A DNA stretch of 64,000 nucleotides, taken from positions 248,001-312,000 of the forward strand of contig NZ_JAIOAO010000006.1 of NCBI RefSeq assembly GCF_021190955.1, read 5' to 3'. The notes under the pieces are model-generated. The model saw nothing but the letters and a program-made list of their open reading frames with translations, had not been told where the DNA came from and ran no database searches. Both the position numbers and the translations under genes were made by a program. This document shows positions 12,187 through 58,250 of this stretch, piece by piece (the first letter of the stretch is position 1; every line of letters begins with the position of its first letter). The stretch comes from Parachryseolinea silvisoli (GTDB lineage Bacteria > Bacteroidota > Bacteroidia > Cytophagales > Cyclobacteriaceae).

Positions 12187-12381
12187 TTAAAATTCGCCTT
12201 TGTAATAGATCTGAAGACCGGTCTTGAAAACCCAGTCGATCGCACCAATCACCAGTGCAAAAAGTGTCGATGCCACCAGCACCAGGATTGCACTGCTTTG
12301 CAATTCACTGTACTTCGACCAAGTCACTTTGTTCTTGATCTCGTCCCAGGACTCTGCGAAATAGGTTTTTAACTTCTCCAT
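12187..12381 (-). CDS. secE: Preprotein translocase subunit SecE
   Basis: SecE clamps SecY in the inner-membrane translocon. At 64 residues this is the short, single-membrane-helix form found in most bacteria. An amphipathic helix (1-30, with ESWDEIKNKVTWSKYSEL) is followed by one hydrophobic segment (about 31-52, SAILVLVASTLFALVIGAID). It starts the secE-nusG-rplK run and lies just downstream of tRNA-Trp, the classic arrangement. Confidence 0.96.
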   Translation of the reverse strand: MEKLKTYFAESWDEIKNKVTWSKYSELQSSAILVLVASTLFALVIGAIDWVFKTGLQIYYKGEF

Positions 12382-12442
12382 GTGATTCTGTCGTTTGTAT
12401 CTGAAAAAGCTTCCGCTTTTCCCTTGTAAACCTCGATTCTAG

Positions 12443-12515
12443 CACGGGTGGAGAGACTCGAACTCCCAGCCAATGGTTTTGGAGACCACTACTCTACCAA
12501 TTGAGCTACACCCGT
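12443..12515 (-). tRNA. tRNA-Trp (CCA anticodon)
   Basis: A 73-base cloverleaf without encoded CCA. The acceptor stem is ACGGGTG with CACCCGT, the anticodon stem GTGGT/ACCAT closes the loop CTCCAAA with anticodon CCA, and the T arm holds GTTCGAGTC. It lies between tuf and secE, as in many Bacteroidota. The discriminator base is G. Confidence 0.97.
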
Positions 12516-12520
12516 TTTTG

Positions 12521-12565
12521 AGTTTACTCTACCTCCCGATAGCTATCGGGGTGAGCTATACCCGT
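12521..12565 (-). pseudogene. Broken 5' copy of tRNA-Trp with a palindromic insert
   Basis: Read on the minus strand, 12565 to 12553 gives ACGGGTATAGCTC, one base different from the first 13 bases of the adjacent tRNA-Trp, and 12533-12525 gives GGTAGAGTA, which continues the same tRNA. Between the two, where the real tRNA has a few D-loop bases, is CCCGATAGCTATCGGG with one flanking base on each side. The copy stops before the anticodon arm, so it cannot be a working tRNA. Confidence 0.6.
12535..12550. repeat. 16-base perfect palindrome CCCGATAGCTATCGGG
   Basis: A perfect inverted repeat in the gap between tuf and tRNA-Trp, sitting inside the broken tRNA copy. The CCCGA...TCGGG core recurs at 9418-9444 and 29047-29066. 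I recall similar palindromes as dispersed elements in other Bacteroidota genomes, but cannot confirm that here. Confidence 0.7.
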
Positions 12566-12632
12566 TTATTTAAATCCCTTGCTCCAACAACCTGATCCCC
12601 ACACCGATGTCACTCGGCCCAAAAAGGGACTG

Positions 12633-12640
12633 CAAAAATA
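12633..12640 (-). promoter_or_regulatory. Possible -7 element for tRNA-Trp-secE
   Basis: On the minus strand TATTTTTG matches TAnnTTTG and lies after the tuf terminator and before tRNA-Trp, where a promoter is expected. I found no convincing -33 TTTG at the right distance, so it is a partial match only. Confidence 0.4.
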
Positions 12641-12650
12641 GAAGAATTGG

Positions 12651-12694
12651 CAGGAAAATAAAAGCGTTCTTGAAAATTATTCCAAGAACGCTTT
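12651..12694 (-). terminator. Intrinsic terminator after tuf
   Basis: AAAGCGTTCTTG (12661-12672) pairs perfectly with CAAGAACGCTTT (12683-12694) around a 10-base loop. On the minus strand the stem runs into TTTTATTTT. It lies 19 bases after the tuf stop codon. Confidence 0.8.
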
Positions 12695-12713
12695 GTTATT
12701 GATAATCAGACGA

Positions 12714-13901
12714 TTAGTCGATGATCTCAGTTACCTGACCAGATCCTACCGTACGGCCACCTTCACGGATAGCGAAACGGAGACCTTTCTCCATCGCGAT
12801 TTTGTTGATCAGCTCAACTTCAATCGAGATGTTGTCGCCAGGCATAACCATTTCCACACCGGCAGGAAGCTTACACTCGCCTGTAACGTCGGTTGTACGG
12901 AAATAGAACTGAGGACGGTATTTGTTGAAGAATGGTGTGTGACGACCACCTTCTTCTTTCGACAGTACGTACACTTCAGCCTTGAACTTAGCGTGCGGCT
13001 TAACCGAACCAGGCTTACAGATAACCATACCACGACGGATTTGCTCTTTTTCAATACCGCGGAGCAGCAGACCTACGTTGTCACCAGCTTCACCTCTGTC
13101 GAGGATCTTGCGGAACATTTCCACACCTGTGATCGTAGATTTCAGGTTTTCTGCACCCATACCCAGGATCTCAACTGCGTCGCCAGTGTTGATAACACCG
13201 CGCTCGATACGACCCGTAGCAACTGTACCACGACCAGTGATCGAGAACACGTCTTCTACAGGCATCAGGAAGTCTTTATCGATCAGACGAACAGGCAGGG
13301 GAATATGCTCATCCACAGCTTTCATCAGTTCTTCAACTTTCTCAACCCATTTCGGTTCGCCGTTCAACGCGCCCAATGCTGAGCCACGGATTACAGGCAT
13401 AGTATCGCCAGGGAAGCTGTAAGCAGACATCAGTTCGCGAACTTCCATCTCTACCAGATCCAACAATTCTTCGTCATCAACAAGATCGACTTTGTTCATG
13501 AATACAACCAGGGCAGGTACACCTACCTGACGGGCCAGGAGGATGTGCTCACGAGTCTGGGGCATAGGGCCGTCTGTAGCAGCCACCACGAGGATAGCAC
13601 CGTCCATCTGAGCAGCACCAGTAACCATGTTCTTCACATAGTCGGCGTGACCAGGGCAATCAACGTGCGCGTAGTGTCTGTTCGCTGTGGCATATTCCAC
13701 GTGCGAAGTATTGATAGTGATACCACGTTCTTTTTCTTCCGGAGCGTTGTCGATAGAAGAGAAGTCACGCATAGAAGCAAGTCCTTTAGACGCAAGCACT
13801 TTTGTAATTGCTGCTGTCAGCGTGGTTTTACCGTGGTCAACGTGACCGATAGTACCCACGTTTACGTGGGGTTTCGAACGATCAAATGTTTCTTTAGCCA
13901 T
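12714..13901 (-). CDS. tuf: Elongation factor Tu
   Basis: EF-Tu carries aminoacyl-tRNA to the ribosomal A site in a GTP-dependent way. The 395-residue protein has the P-loop GHVDHGKT at 19-26, the DCPGH switch II motif, NKVD for guanine recognition, and the domain 2 and 3 motifs [15 protein letters not shown] and [15 protein letters not shown]. It is the tRNA-linked tuf copy, downstream of tRNA-Thr; whether the genome has a second copy cannot be told. A strong terminator follows. Confidence 0.99.
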
Positions 13902-14051
13902 ATTTGAAAATCCCAGTTAAAGTTTTAAAGTAAATAGTGTTAGTTATTAAAGTTCTGTTCTATGTCAATTCGTTGATCGGCTATCGGTTAACTCAGTGAT
14001 TCCGTAACAAATCAACTAATTAACGAATGAACAAATCAACACTTTCCAGAG

Positions 14052-14123
<72 letters not shown>

Positions 14124-52650: not shown

Positions 52651-53538
52651 ATGAAATCCGTGTTCGAAAATGATTTTTTTTCCACAAACCGTACCCTGCA
52701 TTGCGGCGGACGGCTTATCGACCTGCAGACGCCCCGCGTCATGGGCATCCTGAACGTTACGCCGGACAGCTTCTTCGAAGGCAGCCGCTACTCGTCGCTG
52801 GACCAGGTACAGGCACAGGCGGGCGTTATGCTGGAAGCAGGCGCAACTTTCCTGGACATCGGCGGCTACTCCACACGGCCGGGAGCAGCTGACATTACCG
52901 TAGCCGAAGAGGTAGAACGTGTCGTGCCCGCTATACGGGCCATTCTTACGGCCTTTCCGGGTGCTTTGATTTCTGTCGATACCTTTCGCAGCGAGGTTGC
53001 AGCCGAAGCCGTAGCAGCCGGCGCCCACCTCATAAACGACGTATCGGGCGGCACGCTGGACCCGGCCATGTTCGACACCGTAGCCCGTCTGCAAATACCC
53101 TATGTACTGATGCACATGCGCGGCACGCCCCAAACCATGGCGACGCAAACGAACTATACCGACCTGTTGAAGGAAGTTCTGGACTTTCTACACCCGGCGC
53201 TACACGCTCTGCGGCAACGTGGGGTGAAAGATGTCATCATCGATCCGGGCTTTGGTTTTGCTAAAACACCCGCGCAGAATTTCGAGCTGCTGCAACACTT
53301 CGAGCACTTTCGCGTGTTGGGCTGTCCCATGCTGGCGGGGCTGTCGCGCAAGTCAATGATCTGGCGCACGCTGGAGCAGCGACCGGAAGATGCGCTGAAC
53401 GGCACTACTGTGTTGAATACCATTGCCCTGGTGAAAGGCGCCGGCATACTGCGGGTACACGATGTACGCGAGGCCGTGGAGGCCGTCAAGCTGGTCATGC
53501 TTACCACACGTTCTTCCGCACAGAAGTCCGTTGTTTAA
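52651..53538 (+). CDS. folP: Dihydropteroate synthase
   Basis: Joins p-aminobenzoate to the pterin precursor in folate synthesis; the target of sulfonamides. The 295-residue protein has the signature loops PRVMGILNVTPDSFFEGSRY, FLDIGGYSTRPGAADITVAE and DPGFGFAKTPAQNFELL, with LAGLSRKSMIW near the end, all complete. The start at 52651 lies close to the divergent DUF1599 gene. It is followed by cdaA after 38 bases, a pairing common in Bacteroidota, though cdaA seems to have its own promoter as well. Confidence 0.96.
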   Translation: MKSVFENDFFSTNRTLHCGGRLIDLQTPRVMGILNVTPDSFFEGSRYSSLDQVQAQAGVMLEAGATFLDIGGYSTRPGAADITVAEEVERVVPAIRAILTAFPGALISVDTFRSEVAAEAVAAGAHLINDVSGGTLDPAMFDTVARLQIPYVLMHMRGTPQTMATQTNYTDLLKEVLDFLHPALHALRQRGVKDVIIDPGFGFAKTPAQNFELLQHFEHFRVLGCPMLAGLSRKSMIWRTLEQRPEDALNGTTVLNTIALVKGAGILRVHDVREAVEAVKLVMLTTRSSAQKSVV

Positions 53539-53576: not shown

Positions 53577-54443
53577 ATGATCTTCCTGTTCAAAATCGGA
53601 TTCCTGGAAGTTAGCTGGGTCGATGTCATCGATATTGGCCTGGTCAGTGTCTTATTGTACCAGGTGTATAAGCTCATTCGCGGCAGTATTGCCGTGAATA
53701 TCTTCCTGGGTATTCTCGCCCTGTACCTGGTATACCTCATCGTGCGTGCCGCCCAGATGGAACTGCTGACGATGATCCTGGGACAGTTTATGGGCGTAGG
53801 TGTGTTGGCCATGATCATTCTCTTCCAACCTGAGATCCGGAAGTTCCTGCTCGTTATCGGCCGCGGTACGGAGTTTCGCGAAAATATCTTCAAGACCATT
53901 TCCAATTGGCGCCACGAATACCATGATGACTTTGATATAAGCCAGGTGATCGAAGCGGTTAAGACCCTCAAGGCTTCAAAGACCGGAGCGCTCATGGTTT
54001 TCTCGCGCGACACCGAGCTGAAGTTCTACGCACAGACCGGCGATGCCCTGGATGCCGAAGTAAACAAGCGCCTGCTCCTGTCGATATTCAATAAAAATTC
54101 TCCCCTGCACGACGGCGCTGTGATTATATATAAAGGCCGCATCCGGGCGGCACGCTGCGTATTGCCTGTCAGTGAAAACGACCACCTTCCCCCTAACTTT
54201 GGGCTGCGCCACCGTGCGGCCGTGGGTATGTCCGAAAGCACGGACACGCTCGTGCTGGCGATATCGGAAGAAACGGGTCGCCTGGTGCTGGCCCGGAACG
54301 GTAAATATCTGCGCGCCCTGAAACTGAAACAGATCGAGCAAAAGATCCTGGACTACCTGCACAACAACGAATCTGGCAACTGGGAGGAGGTACACGAGCA
54401 CGAAGCCGAGGCGCCCGCCGAAACGCCACCCGTTAAAGCGTAA
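53577..54443 (+). CDS. cdaA: Diadenylate cyclase CdaA (DisA_N domain)
   Basis: Makes the second messenger c-di-AMP from two ATP. The 288-residue protein has three N-terminal membrane segments (about 2-20, 35-58, 62-82) and a DisA_N cyclase domain. The catalytic motifs are intact: DGA at 179-181 in LHDGAVIIYKGRIRAARC and RHR at 211-213 in GLRHRAAVGMSE. The tail is charged. It follows folP by 38 bases and precedes the WD40-caspase gene by 39 bases, so the three may share transcripts. No c-di-AMP phosphodiesterase gene lies in the window. Confidence 0.95.
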   Translation: MIFLFKIGFLEVSWVDVIDIGLVSVLLYQVYKLIRGSIAVNIFLGILALYLVYLIVRAAQMELLTMILGQFMGVGVLAMIILFQPEIRKFLLVIGRGTEFRENIFKTISNWRHEYHDDFDISQVIEAVKTLKASKTGALMVFSRDTELKFYAQTGDALDAEVNKRLLLSIFNKNSPLHDGAVIIYKGRIRAARCVLPVSENDHLPPNFGLRHRAAVGMSESTDTLVLAISEETGRLVLARNGKYLRALKLKQIEQKILDYLHNNESGNWEEVHEHEAEAPAETPPVKA

Positions 54444-54450
54444 AACTTAC

Positions 54451-54458
54451 TACTTTTG
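54451..54458 (+). promoter_or_regulatory. Possible -7 element for the WD40-caspase gene
   Basis: TACTTTTG matches TAnnTTTG and lies 24 bases before the start codon at 54483. No good -33 element is visible, so the gene may rely partly on read-through from cdaA. Confidence 0.4.
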
Positions 54459-54482
54459 CCTGGCATCTAATTTGCCGCCGGC

Positions 54483-57400
54483 ATGAGACTGACCTTCCTC
54501 TTTGTGCTGCTCACCAGCAGCTCTTTCGCACAATCCATTGAAACCATTATTCAAAAGGGCCACGAGCTGGCGGTCATGACCGTCGCCGTCAGCCCTGACA
54601 GCAATTACATTGCTACCGGCAGCAAAGACAAGGCTGCCAAGCTATGGGAGATCAGCACCGGCCGCGAAGTGCGCAGCTTCCTGGGCCACGAAGCCACTGT
54701 CACCAGCCTGGCCTTTACGCCTAACGGCCAGTACCTCCTCAGCGGTAGCTACGACAAAACCATCCGCTTGTGGGAAGTGAAGACCGGACGGGAAATAGCC
54801 GTTATTACCACCATTGACTTCGTCGGCGACGTCGCCATCGATCCACAGATGCGTTTTTTTGTACACACGGGCACTAACGATACGGGCTACGATTCTGCCG
54901 TAATCTACGACTTTAAAACCCGCCGCGTGCTGGTGCGCCTGCCCGTCGATCCCGACAAGGGCCTGGGCACGGGCACTGACATCGCCATCAGCCCCGATGG
55001 CCGCTGGATGGCTCTCGGCCAGGATGACCGCCGCACCAGCCTATACGACGTACAGCAGTGGAAACTTGTCAAAGACTTTACCGCCGAAGACGAAGGCAGC
55101 TGCGGTGGCTGTGGCACCCGTGCGGAGTTCAGTCCCGACAGCAAGTTCCTGTATACCCTGCCCCACAACGGCATCGCTAAGAAATTTAACCTCGCCACCC
55201 TGGCCCTGGTGCGCACCTACGACAAGAACGAAGAGGACGTAACCGGCTCGGCGCTTAGCCCGGACGGTAAGAAATTGGCGTTGGCGACAGAAGAAGATGT
55301 TACCGTATGGGACGAAGCTTCGGGCAAAGTACTTGCCAAACTGGTAGCCGAAGAAAAAGGTCAATTCCACCGGGTGACGTTCACCAACAGTGGCAACGAG
55401 TTGCTCGTCACCTCCGACAACAACACAGCGTTTGCCTGGAACCCGACATCACAAAAGAAGACCAGCGTCTTTACCGGTTTCCTCAGCCAACGCGACAAAG
55501 GCGGCCTGGACTACGACCCTAACTTTTACTGGCAGTCGTCCATTGCTAAATATGTACGCCTCAAAAACAGCCTTCGCATTACGCCCGACGGCAAGACACT
55601 GATCAAAGGTAAGTTTGGCACCAAAGTAAAACGCTGGGACATTGCCAGTGGCAAGACCGTGATGGAGTATGTCAGCCACAAGAAAGGAGTGCTGAGCTAC
55701 GATCTTTCTAAGGACGGCAGCAAACTGCTGACGGGCGGAGGCGACGGCAAGATTGTATTGTGGGACCTGAACACCGGTGACTCGCTCAAGGTAATTCAAT
55801 CGTACCGTGAGCCGATCTTCGATATACATTTCAACGCCGCCGAGACCGGTGTGATCTCTTGCAGCTGGGACGCTACCATGAAAATCCACGACCTGGCCAC
55901 CGGCACAATGCAAACCTACTTCGATTTTCAGAGCTACTCGGTATATAACCTGCTTTACCCCGACGACCTCTACGTCATTACGGCCCGCCTGGACAACGCC
56001 ATTCAGATGTGGGAGATCGACACGAAGAAAGAAGTGCGCAATTTTGTTGGTCATACAGATATTGTAGGCTCGATCCAAATCAGCGCTGACCGCAAAACGC
56101 TGCTCAGTGCCAGCTGGGACGGCTCGGTGCGCCTGTGGGATGTAGGCACCGGCCTGATGACCCGCAAGCTGAAAGACCACCGCGGCGCAGTGCACACGGC
56201 GATCTTTAGCACCAACGAAAAAGAGATTTATACCGCCGGTGCCGACCGCACCATCCGCGTGTGGGAGCCTGCGACCGGTAAAATTATCCGCACCTTCCAG
56301 GGGCACAATGCCGAAGTAACCTCACTGCTGTTGAGCCCTGACGGAAAAATGCTGATCAGCCATAGTCTGGACGGCGTGACCAAGTTCTGGGACCTCGCCA
56401 CCGGCAAAGAGTTCTTCGAGCACATACACCTGGGCGAGCGCGACTGGATGGTCAAGAACCCCGAGGGATATTTTAATGGCACCGACGACGCACGCAAGAA
56501 TATACACTTCGTCAGCGGTCTGAAGACTTACGCGGTCGACCAGTTCTTCCACGAGTTTTACCGACCCGATCTGCTTCCCAAAATATTCCAAAACCGCGGC
56601 GGTCGTGACGATCGCAAGGGTGGCATCCAGGGTAAGCTCAACAGCGCACCTCCTCCGACGGTAAAGGTGGCAGTATTGCCGCATGCCACCGAGGGCAAGG
56701 CAGAACTATACATTCGCATTACTGACAATGGCGCCGGAGTAGAGAACTTACGAGTCATGCACAATGGCAAAAGCATTTCACTGGATCGTGGGGCACTGAA
56801 GCTTCCTTCAGGCAAAGGACAGACGTCCACGTATAAAGAAGTCGTTGACCTGGTGAGCGGCCCTAACAGCTTTACCGCCGTCGCCAGCAACCGTGACCAT
56901 GTAGAGTCTGATCCACACACGGCGGAGATCGTCTCCGACCACGTTTCGAAGAACAGCACCTGTTATGTACTGTCGGTCGGCATCAACCAATACAAAAACA
57001 GCAAGCTCAGCCTGAACTATGCTCGTCCCGACGCCGAGTCGTTCAGCAAGGTGATTGTCAACGACAAAAGCACGAAACTCTTTAAGGACATCGAGCTGGT
57101 AACCCTGTACGACGGCGAGGCCACGCGCGAACACATCCTGCGTAAACTGGATGAGCTCAGCAGCAAGATCCGGCAGGAGGACGTCTTTATTTTGTACTAC
57201 GCCGGCCACGGTAGCATGGTGGAGAACAAATTTTACTTTATCCCCACGGAAGGTCTGCGGCTGTACGACCAGGCCGCGCTGCAGAAAGAAGCCATTGAGG
57301 CCGGTGTTTTACAAGACAAGCTGAAGCACATCAAGGCGCTGAAGCAGCTTATCATCATGGACGCCTGCCAGTCGGGTGGCTCCGTCGAGTTGCTGGCCAC

Positions 57401-57713
57401 ACGGGGTGCGGGCGAAGAGAAGGCCATTGCCCAATTGTCGCGCAGTGCGGGCATTCACGTCATGGCCTCGGCGGGCAGCGAGCAGTTCGCCACCGAGTTT
57501 ACCGAGTTGGGCCACGGCCTCTTTACATATGTGTTGATCAAGGCCCTGCAGGGCGCAGCAGACGGCGCCCCGCACGACGGCAAGGTTACAATTTATGAAC
57601 TGAAGTCATACATTGACGACCAGGTGCCCGAGATGACACGCCAGCTGAAGGGCAAACCGCAGTATCCGTATACCTTCAGCCGGGGACAAGATTTCCCTGT
57701 GGTAATCGAGTGA
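54483..57713 (+). CDS. Secreted WD40-repeat protein with C-terminal caspase (peptidase C14) domain
   Basis: A 1076-residue protein. A signal peptide (1-17, ending SSSFAQ) suggests export. Residues about 25-645 hold some 14 WD40-type units, enough for two seven-bladed propellers; clear units include GSYDKTIRLWEVKTGREI, ASWDGSVRLWDVGTG and AGADRTIRVWEPATGK. A linker with NPEGYFNG and FFHEFYRPDLLP, usual in bacterial WD40-caspase proteins, leads to a beta-sandwich (about 700-810) and a caspase-like domain (about 830-1076) with the catalytic pair His909 (YYAGHGS) and Cys962 (IIMDACQSGG). Some residues after the cysteine (SVELLATRGAG) look like an autoprocessing loop. The target is unknown. Confidence 0.92.
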   Translation: MRLTFLFVLLTSSSFAQSIETIIQKGHELAVMTVAVSPDSNYIATGSKDKAAKLWEISTGREVRSFLGHEATVTSLAFTPNGQYLLSGSYDKTIRLWEVKTGREIAVITTIDFVGDVAIDPQMRFFVHTGTNDTGYDSAVIYDFKTRRVLVRLPVDPDKGLGTGTDIAISPDGRWMALGQDDRRTSLYDVQQWKLVKDFTAEDEGSCGGCGTRAEFSPDSKFLYTLPHNGIAKKFNLATLALVRTYDKNEEDVTGSALSPDGKKLALATEEDVTVWDEASGKVLAKLVAEEKGQFHRVTFTNSGNELLVTSDNNTAFAWNPTSQKKTSVFTGFLSQRDKGGLDYDPNFYWQSSIAKYVRLKNSLRITPDGKTLIKGKFGTKVKRWDIASGKTVMEYVSHKKGVLSYDLSKDGSKLLTGGGDGKIVLWDLNTGDSLKVIQSYREPIFDIHFNAAETGVISCSWDATMKIHDLATGTMQTYFDFQSYSVYNLLYPDDLYVITARLDNAIQMWEIDTKKEVRNFVGHTDIVGSIQISADRKTLLSASWDGSVRLWDVGTGLMTRKLKDHRGAVHTAIFSTNEKEIYTAGADRTIRVWEPATGKIIRTFQGHNAEVTSLLLSPDGKMLISHSLDGVTKFWDLATGKEFFEHIHLGERDWMVKNPEGYFNGTDDARKNIHFVSGLKTYAVDQFFHEFYRPDLLPKIFQNRGGRDDRKGGIQGKLNSAPPPTVKVAVLPHATEGKAELYIRITDNGAGVENLRVMHNGKSISLDRGALKLPSGKGQTSTYKEVVDLVSGPNSFTAVASNRDHVESDPHTAEIVSDHVSKNSTCYVLSVGINQYKNSKLSLNYARPDAESFSKVIVNDKSTKLFKDIELVTLYDGEATREHILRKLDELSSKIRQEDVFILYYAGHGSMVENKFYFIPTEGLRLYDQAALQKEAIEAGVLQDKLKHIKALKQLIIMDACQSGGSVELLATRGAGEEKAIAQLSRSAGIHVMASAGSEQFATEFTELGHGLFTYVLIKALQGAADGAPHDGKVTIYELKSYIDDQVPEMTRQLKGKPQYPYTFSRGQDFPVVIE

Positions 57714-57797
57714 TAAGAAAATCACGGTAACTGGAACAAAATTGGCAGACATATCGTAAATTAGGTTTACACATAACCCCTGACTTGATTTAAGAAA

Positions 57798-58250
57798 ATG
57801 GTAGAAGCTAACCCCGTTAAATTTTATTTCGCCAAATACTTTTTCCTGGCCTTCGCACTTATCCAGTGGATCGTAGGAGGTATCGTTATCATTGGCCGCG
57901 ACTTTAATGCCAAAAGCTTTTTCATTGCCTTGATCTTTTTCACGCTGGGACTTATTTCCCTCTTTATTTTCTCCATCGTCAGCGACAAGATTCGGCGAGT
58001 AGCGGTCGGCAAAAACAAGATCGTGGTCCTGGAAGGTCACCGCAACATCCGGCTGGAGTGGCCTGAGGTCAAGTCCCTGCGCATTGTACCCTACCTGAAT
58101 ATTTACAAGCTCAAGATCCGGGGCAAAAAAAGCTGCATCTATTTTTTCCCTTCCGATAACATCGATCCGGCGTTTGGCTTCATTGCCAAGGACACCTCTA
58201 AAATGGGCGAGATCGTCGCCAAGCGCAAGAAGGAATTCGGTATCAAGTAA
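57798..58250 (+). CDS. Small membrane protein with a PH-like domain
   Basis: A 150-residue protein with two membrane segments (about 9-32 and 39-62) and a C-terminal domain of about 85 residues with alternating strands (RRVAVGKNKIVVLEGHRNIR, then WPEVKSLRIVPYLNIYKLKI) ending in a basic helix. The outline resembles bacterial PH-like domains of small membrane proteins. No function is assigned. It lies 84 bases after the caspase gene on the same strand and could be a partner, but this rests on position alone. Confidence 0.7.
   Translation: MVEANPVKFYFAKYFFLAFALIQWIVGGIVIIGRDFNAKSFFIALIFFTLGLISLFIFSIVSDKIRRVAVGKNKIVVLEGHRNIRLEWPEVKSLRIVPYLNIYKLKIRGKKSCIYFFPSDNIDPAFGFIAKDTSKMGEIVAKRKKEFGIK

Follow-up and report, generated by a model that had tools for sequence, protein, structure and literature searches.

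A predicted exported WD40 double-propeller caspase family and its long-standing, optional linkage to cdaA in soil bacteria related to Dawidia and Chryseolinea

Results

Locus and protein architecture

We analyzed a 64,000-nucleotide stretch of Parachryseolinea silvisoli (contig NZ_JAIOAO010000006.1, positions 248,001 to 312,000; hereafter the window), in which a gene for a C14 caspase-like protein with WD40 repeats follows cdaA, the gene of a membrane diadenylate cyclase, and precedes a gene for a small membrane protein (Table 1). The open reading frame (ORF) of the caspase gene is uninterrupted, starts with ATG and specifies 1076 amino acids. The coordinates of the two genes place 39 bases between the end of cdaA and this ORF, exactly as the original prediction, made from the sequence of the window, had it. 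A promoter and terminator scan and a Bacteroidota promoter consensus, a negative that carries little weight, found no site within the gaps on either side of the gene (54444-54482 and 57714-57797).

Pfam identified WD40 repeats (PF00400, E 1.8e-68) and a Peptidase_C14 domain (PF00656, E 6.8e-18), the latter at 65.6 bits against a cut-off of 21.4, a score that places the protein in C14. The PF00656 match spans residues 190-424 of the C-terminal 437-aa piece and does not separate p20 from p10. An AlphaFold2 run with the window protein and 63 of its 78 listed relatives gave a model with a mean pLDDT (predicted local distance difference test) of 87.7 and a pTM (predicted template modelling score) of 0.82. 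Residues 20-330 of the model contained 29 strands and residues 364-649 another 28, which fits two seven-bladed propellers of about 14 units in all; these were followed by a beta-sandwich and a caspase-like alpha/beta domain, and no further domain was present. His909 lay within strand 901-913 and Cys962 at the end of strand 954-962, and as far as secondary structure shows the model retains the His/Cys placement on which the original prediction relied. The pLDDT fell below 50 in the loop after the catalytic Cys (964-969) and at residues 1001-1003, as might be expected if these were mobile activation loops.

Fold comparison with VIA-align superposed residues 25-322 on the seven-bladed propeller 7big_A (Z 37.1, root-mean-square deviation (rmsd) 2.0 over 277 residues), and on the model and this alignment the protein qualifies as a seven-bladed WD40 propeller protein. 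The second propeller had no separate row in the fold search and is supported by the model and by matches to the whole pair. The double propeller matched 2ymu with a Z of 38.3 and an rmsd of 11.5, and Apaf-1 (3sfz) with a Z of 37.2 over 571 residues and an rmsd of 16.5, deviations which indicate that the relative placement of the propellers differs. The best 50 matches per program to the whole model were all propellers and included no caspase-fold chain, a result that excludes nothing, and the caspase domain was therefore assessed by sequence profile alone. This profile matched GSU0716 (3bij) in the PDB with an E of 1.1e-6 and the metacaspases MCA2, Mca1 and MC4 with E values of 2e-4 to 0.05. 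These best solved relatives are single caspase-family proteins of 285-433 residues, and the matches cover part of the domain. Neither a P-loop NTPase nor a YbbR domain (PF07949) was among the Pfam matches listed (25 of 52 families, with the C-terminal 437 aa rescanned in full).

Table 1. Coordinates of the caspase gene, its parts and its neighbours in the window
Feature	Position	Strand	Basis
WD40 double propeller-Ig-like-C14 caspase protein, exported (predicted)	54483..57713	+	1076 aa, ATG; ORF scan, Pfam, model
Signal peptide (predicted), residues ~1-17	54483..54533	+	hydrophobic stretch in alignment rows
Propeller 1, seven blades, residues 20-335	54540..55487	+	AlphaFold2 model and VIA-align match to 7big_A
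CGGC motif C207/C210, inside propeller 1	55101..55112	+	alignment conservation
Propeller 2, seven blades, residues 340-648	55500..56426	+	AlphaFold2 model
Conserved connector after propeller 2, residues 649-702	56427..56588	+	alignment conservation
Ig-like (immunoglobulin-like) beta-sandwich, residues 726-818	56658..56936	+	model strands; sandwich type from no search
C14 caspase domain, residues 826-1076	56958..57710	+	PF00656; PDB metacaspase profile match
Catalytic His909	57207..57209	+	64/64 rows
Catalytic Cys962, in DACQSGG	57366..57368	+	64/64 rows
cdaA, membrane diadenylate cyclase	53577..54443	+	TIGR00159, 203 bits (cut-off 188.8); DAC and CdaA_N domains
folP, dihydropteroate synthase	52651..53538	+	TIGR01496, 306.8 bits
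150-aa protein, two transmembrane (TM) helices then beta-domain, perhaps PH-like	57798..58250	+	prediction; structural matches weak

Catalytic site, selection and export

In a 64-row alignment (A2) that included the window protein, the dyad residues His909 and Cys962 were identical in every row, within the H-G and D-x-C-x-S-G patterns of C14 enzymes. D850, D960, R974, K980, R987 and E1005 were likewise identical throughout. The caspase domain was the most conserved region (mean share of the commonest residue 0.78), followed by the connector 649-702 (0.74), propeller 2 (0.63), and propeller 1 and the sandwich (0.53 each). Within propeller 1, Cys occupied the columns of C207 and of C210 in 62 of the 64 rows each, and the conservation of this CGGC pair suggests a disulfide or a redox-sensitive site; C827 was Cys in 56 of 64. 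The caspase-domain profile aligned D850 with a conserved Asp of the trypanosome metacaspase MCA2, whose pocket we take to be lined by this Asp and by the one preceding the catalytic Cys. Modelled cyanobacterial orthocaspases are described as having two well-conserved Asp residues in the pocket (PMC6426788), and non-metazoan C14 enzymes as cutting after Arg or Lys (PMC5756287). Since both pocket Asp positions are conserved in our family, its caspase domain likely prefers a basic P1 residue (Arg/Lys).

Relative to Dawidia soli, whose protein is 94% identical, dN/dS by NG86 was 0.042 for the whole caspase gene and 0.030 for its caspase domain, compared with 0.039 for CdaA, 0.063 for FolP, 0.035 for the small membrane protein and 0.067 for an aldo-keto reductase. 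The gene is thus under strong purifying selection, and this ratio together with its presence in all seven genomes of the genus (the window's own counted; 70-100% identity) indicates that the ORF is not a chance one.

A simple hydropathy rule called the N-terminus signal-peptide-like in 63 of the 64 rows, the exception being L105, and cleavage may, as a guess, fall near A16/Q17. The export signal is well supported and is consistent with Sec export to a predicted periplasmic location. A lipoprotein was considered and rejected, a lipobox-like motif being found in just 2 of 64 rows; so was cargo of the type IX secretion system, as the two NCBIfam models that matched at E <= 0.001 were neither of them a sorting domain. 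The architecture named by the original prediction (a signal peptide, about 14 WD40 units, a beta-sandwich and a caspase-like site with its His and Cys intact) was borne out by hydropathy, Pfam, the model and the alignment.

Distribution of the family

The caspase protein represents a conserved family in soil bacteria related to Dawidia and Chryseolinea. Beyond the genus, a match was found in 39 of 148 genomes of the taxonomic family at E <= 1e-100, and at E <= 1e-60 in 39 of 291 genomes of the order and 11 of 395 of the phylum. Scoring was limited to five candidates per genome in the family count and to two in the order and phylum counts, which makes these numbers lower limits. A scan of genome contigs returned 422 stretches encoding a relative, the best 80 of which were used below.

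The genome of the window carries one full-length copy of the gene among five C14 domains, and the gene is single-copy and chromosomal by these computations. The same genome has, at G000:C7:1089610-1092755 (L005:808-2298, L006:511-2109), two nearby genes with TPR repeats and a C-terminal C14 domain (137 bits each), a pair separate from the window gene. One other genome, G023 (L070:7910-11281 and L055), encodes two full-length family members, one linked to cdaA (~60% identity) and the other located elsewhere (43%), which indicates that a second subfamily exists.

Linkage to cdaA in one clade

In a first set of 40 loci and the window, cdaA lay upstream of the caspase gene in 17 of 41. A second set comprised 78 of the 80 loci and the window, with L127 (split frame) and L160 (partial) left out, and of these 79 rows 45 were linked, 29 unlinked and 5, near contig ends, undecided. 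The two sets overlap, and several of their records are identical contigs. L127 (CP058703.1) shows the same gene order with an intact cdaA, but its caspase gene is divided between two frames, which reflects either a real break or a sequencing error.

A tree of the 79 proteins, built with a quick IQ-TREE run and supported by the SH-like approximate likelihood ratio test (SH-aLRT) only, placed every linked row in one 54-row set with 99% support (45 linked, 7 unlinked and 2 undecided), a set whose most distant members share 49% identity with the window protein. The 22 scorable rows that fell elsewhere on the tree were all unlinked. The linked or unlinked label needs six changes on the whole tree, a number that is not exact because the program warned of long branches and open forks, and since every scorable outside row was unlinked the preferred reading is a single gain followed by several escapes. 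The linkage fits a single origin at the base of the 54-row set with later escapes.

Within the set, cdaA and the caspase gene were adjacent in 41 of the 52 scorable rows and one gene apart in 4, and the caspase and small membrane genes were adjacent in 35. The gap between cdaA and the caspase gene, counted from the first possible start codons, was 60 bases or less in 36 of the 45 linked rows. On the other side of cdaA, mutS took the place of folP in six rows (L101, L115, L117, L118, L136 and L137; NCBIfam 1002-1031 bits in all six, cut-off 480), and all six kept the cdaA-caspase order. On the caspase tree the six occupy two separate places and thus represent at most two events. In 25 of the 54 rows the small membrane gene adjoined a gene for glycine C-acetyltransferase (707 bits, cut-off 493). 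At three loci (L107:9457-9951, L111:3401-3895 and L140:4756-5250) a 164-aa DUF1648 protein is encoded between cdaA and the caspase gene, and at L092:9309-9977 Pfam identified an opposite-strand MgtC-family gene after cdaA, with the caspase gene present.

Judged from gene order and the tree, the cdaA-caspase arrangement is genuine and of long standing in one clade, the Chryseolinea-Dawidia clade, in which the short same-strand gaps indicate that the two genes are probably co-transcribed. Such co-transcription would hint at, without demonstrating, a part for the caspase in the same envelope-stress programme as cdaA, and a role shared by the caspase and cdaA is possible but unproven.

The neighbourhood outside the linked loci

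We chose 30 genomes of the taxonomic family for a closer look at cdaA: 14 with the caspase gene elsewhere, one linked (G023) and 15 with no match at E <= 1e-100. In all 30, folP adjoined cdaA, and the caspase gene lay within the flank after cdaA only in G023. The original prediction had tied the protease to cell-envelope state through cdaA and had named, as evidence against this, relatives that keep folP-cdaA and place the gene elsewhere; that is what we found in 14 of the 14 examined genomes with the gene elsewhere. In G039 the small membrane gene directly follows cdaA and the caspase gene is elsewhere, and the small membrane gene lies ~1.1 kb from cdaA in G136 and ~180 bases from it in G050. 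Neither G136 nor G050, which are drafts of 99 and 96% completeness, had a match to the caspase protein anywhere in the genome at E <= 1e-10. The retention of folP-cdaA with the caspase gene elsewhere or absent makes the cdaA link lineage-specific and optional. In G136 an MgtC-like opposite-strand frame, identified by eye and interrupted by a stop, follows cdaA (L202:351-1501), without a caspase gene.

Pairwise protein distances of the caspase correlated with those of cdaA at a Pearson coefficient of 0.62, compared with 0.74 each for folP and the small membrane protein, 0.63 for DUF1599 and 0.65 for BT_3928. A mirror-tree argument for co-evolution with cdaA was therefore set aside as not informative, as cdaA did no better than the other neighbours.

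We also considered whether the caspase stands in for CdaR. With PF07949 the window genome yielded no YbbR gene at E <= 0.001, and a profile built from seven divergent relatives (A5) found a YbbR-like gene there with an E of 1.6e-127, which encodes a divergent YbbR/CdaR-like protein of ~315 aa (G000:C6:524092-525036). Such a gene, encoded elsewhere, was present in 19 of the 20 genomes searched, whether the caspase gene was linked, unlinked or missing; the caspase has thus not taken the place of CdaR, and this idea was rejected.

A constant pair of neighbours among the unlinked members was seen only at three Fulvivirga-like loci. There, an opposite-strand gene for a PD40 propeller protein lies upstream of the caspase gene and an alpha/beta-hydrolase gene downstream (L152:8178-9911 and 13279-14058; L154:8156-9874 and 13306-14079; L150:7048-8820 and 12273-13064).

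The small membrane protein

The 150-aa protein encoded 3' of the caspase gene, expected from the original prediction to be a small membrane protein, has two predicted TM helices and a beta-domain, and 31 relatives were aligned. No Pfam family matched it at E up to 1, save one of 10 bits, below its cut-off. Its structural matches were weak (best Z 7.1), and the beta-domain may, on this weak resemblance, be PH-like.

Discussion

We place the gene in a family of predicted exported caspases with two propellers, in which the cdaA neighbour is long-standing yet optional; the observation behind the original prediction is confirmed and its interpretation partly supported. We consider it moderately probable that the product is an exported, latent cysteine protease of the C14 orthocaspase type with Arg/Lys specificity, which is located in the periplasm and controlled by its propellers. 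The export signal, fold, intact dyad, purifying selection and single chromosomal copy are supported by computation; protease activity, P1 preference, propeller sensing, autoprocessing and a substrate are what we infer. After Sec export, the propellers and the Ig-like sandwich would bind an envelope ligand or a partner protein, and this binding would reposition the flexible loop after the catalytic Cys. Activation might involve self-cleavage at the invariant R974, K980 and R987, and the activated enzyme would then cut an envelope substrate. For the periplasmic protease with sensing propellers that the original prediction put forward, export and a conserved catalytic site are thus well supported, and the propellers may act as sensors. 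Several observations weigh against this reading. At most 109 of the 148 genomes of the taxonomic family, an upper limit given the scoring, had no match at E <= 1e-100, which makes the task of the gene a dispensable one. Of eight scanned neighbour proteins of unlinked members, four could not be assigned to a family and no family was common to the remaining four. In the parts of the literature searched we found no report that assigns this family an activity, a ligand, a substrate or a location in the cell.

As for why the gene lies beside cdaA, there is about an even chance that it is a passenger in a conserved housekeeping block, having arrived in a single event between cdaA and the small membrane gene, with the order inherited since. 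The block around it is old, as the constant folP-cdaA pair and the glycine C-acetyltransferase adjacency illustrate; cdaA and the small membrane gene lie near each other without an intervening caspase gene in three genomes; and the gene has escaped several times without being lost. What a passenger does not readily account for is that the cdaA-caspase junction outlasts the folP side in the six mutS rows and that short same-strand gaps persist over deep divergence. These features would instead be expected if the exported caspase were a partner of CdaA and the periplasmic arm of cyclic di-AMP (c-di-AMP) control in the clade, for example by cleaving a CdaA partner or the small membrane protein under envelope stress. 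Linkage in 45 of 52 scorable clade rows, even at 49% identity, with just six label changes on the tree, also favours such a partnership, as does the c-di-AMP control of envelope homeostasis reported for P. gingivalis, another member of the Bacteroidota in which c-di-AMP is essential and affects the envelope (PMC9259658). We nevertheless regard it as unlikely, though not far-fetched. The 14 genomes with the gene elsewhere retain folP-cdaA, linkage is missing from every scorable row beyond the clade, cdaA and the small membrane gene remain close together in two genomes with no caspase match, the known type of CdaA regulator (YbbR/CdaR-like) is encoded elsewhere in nearly every genome searched, and caspase distances follow cdaA no better than four other neighbours. 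Of the c-di-AMP link in the original prediction, then, what stands is a gene order that appears old in one clade, and the unlinked genomes count against the rest. Either account of the neighbourhood is compatible with the protease reading and they are not exclusive of it.

Two further possibilities concern the protein itself. Many cytosolic caspase-NLR or EACC1-type systems act as anti-phage or self-killing effectors, and caspase-bearing conflict systems have been described (Kaur 2020, PMC7159879). Our protein had weak PADLOC matches ('caspase' at 44.6 bits and, in the WD40 region, 'HEAT-ARM_XIII' at 70.3 bits), a match to the NCBIfam model of EACC1-associated caspases (NF047832) that at 79.3 bits stayed below the cut-off of 140, and tandem propellers that resemble those of Apaf-1. 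On the other hand, it is predicted to be exported, no STAND ATPase was seen in it, and its gene occurs as one full-length copy throughout the genus with a low dN/dS. None of 111 matching plasmid records covered 80% of the protein, viral contigs gave one weak caspase match (28% identity) and a phage collection one match (29%) in a record labelled Salmonella. We therefore downgraded the defence role to very unlikely, and the best reading is that the gene is neither a fast-evolving nor a mobile defence gene. It would be just as improbable for the protein to be a catalytically inactive scaffold whose caspase fold serves only for binding: pseudo-orthocaspases do exist and are reported as rare in Bacteroidetes (10 of 1078 sequences; PMC6426788), but the dyad and both pocket Asp residues were invariant in our alignment.

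WD40-metacaspases and metacaspases with probable signal peptides are already known. In a survey of prokaryotic metacaspases, WD40 repeats occurred in 73 of 671 sequences and N-terminal helices were noted as possible signal peptides (Asplund-Samuelsson 2012, PMC3501461). Those proteins share with ours a C14 His-Cys domain joined to WD40 repeats, whereas our family keeps its parts in one arrangement (signal peptide, then two propellers, sandwich and a caspase at the C-terminus), and no NACHT domain was seen in it. Operons are treated in the main text of that survey with no mention of a c-di-AMP gene, and a survey of prokaryotic WD40 proteins lists C14 domains among the neighbours of cyanobacterial WD40 genes (PMC5587647). 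We found no report of a cdaA-caspase pairing in the titles, abstract openings and passages searched. The likeness to Apaf-1 and the apoptosome, in which tandem WD40 propellers serve as the sensor of a caspase pathway (PMC7159879), appears to be one of layout and not of membership, because no CARD or NB-ARC ATPase was seen in our protein, which unites propellers and caspase in one chain and is predicted to be exported. EACC1-associated caspases also belong to a membrane-proximal bacterial system, but EACC1, as described, has a single TM segment and its gene lies 5' of the one for a protein whose caspase is N-terminal (PMC7159879), whereas our caspase domain is C-terminal and its two-TM neighbour lies 3'. 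CdaR/YbbR proteins are membrane regulators often encoded in the cyclase operon (PMC9259658), unlike our protein, which had no YbbR domain among the matches listed and whose genome has a separate YbbR-like gene.

Exported bacterial caspases are apparently little studied in the literature searched, which named no partner or substrate for this family. The gene is fixed beside cdaA in the culturable genera Chryseolinea, Ohtaekwangia, Dawidia and Chryseosolibacter and lies apart from it in other genera, and linked and unlinked genera thus offer a natural comparison for a role of the caspase in envelope control or c-di-AMP signalling. A bolder proposal, which we consider quite unlikely, is that in the Chryseolinea-Dawidia clade the caspase and CdaA form one envelope-sensing operon in which damage outside the cell would trigger proteolysis and so alter CdaA output; if true, this would place a nucleotide second messenger under the control, across the inner membrane, of a caspase-type protease. 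More generally, a role of the caspase in envelope control or c-di-AMP signalling would, if true, bring caspase-type regulation into the periplasm and give c-di-AMP in Bacteroidota a new input.

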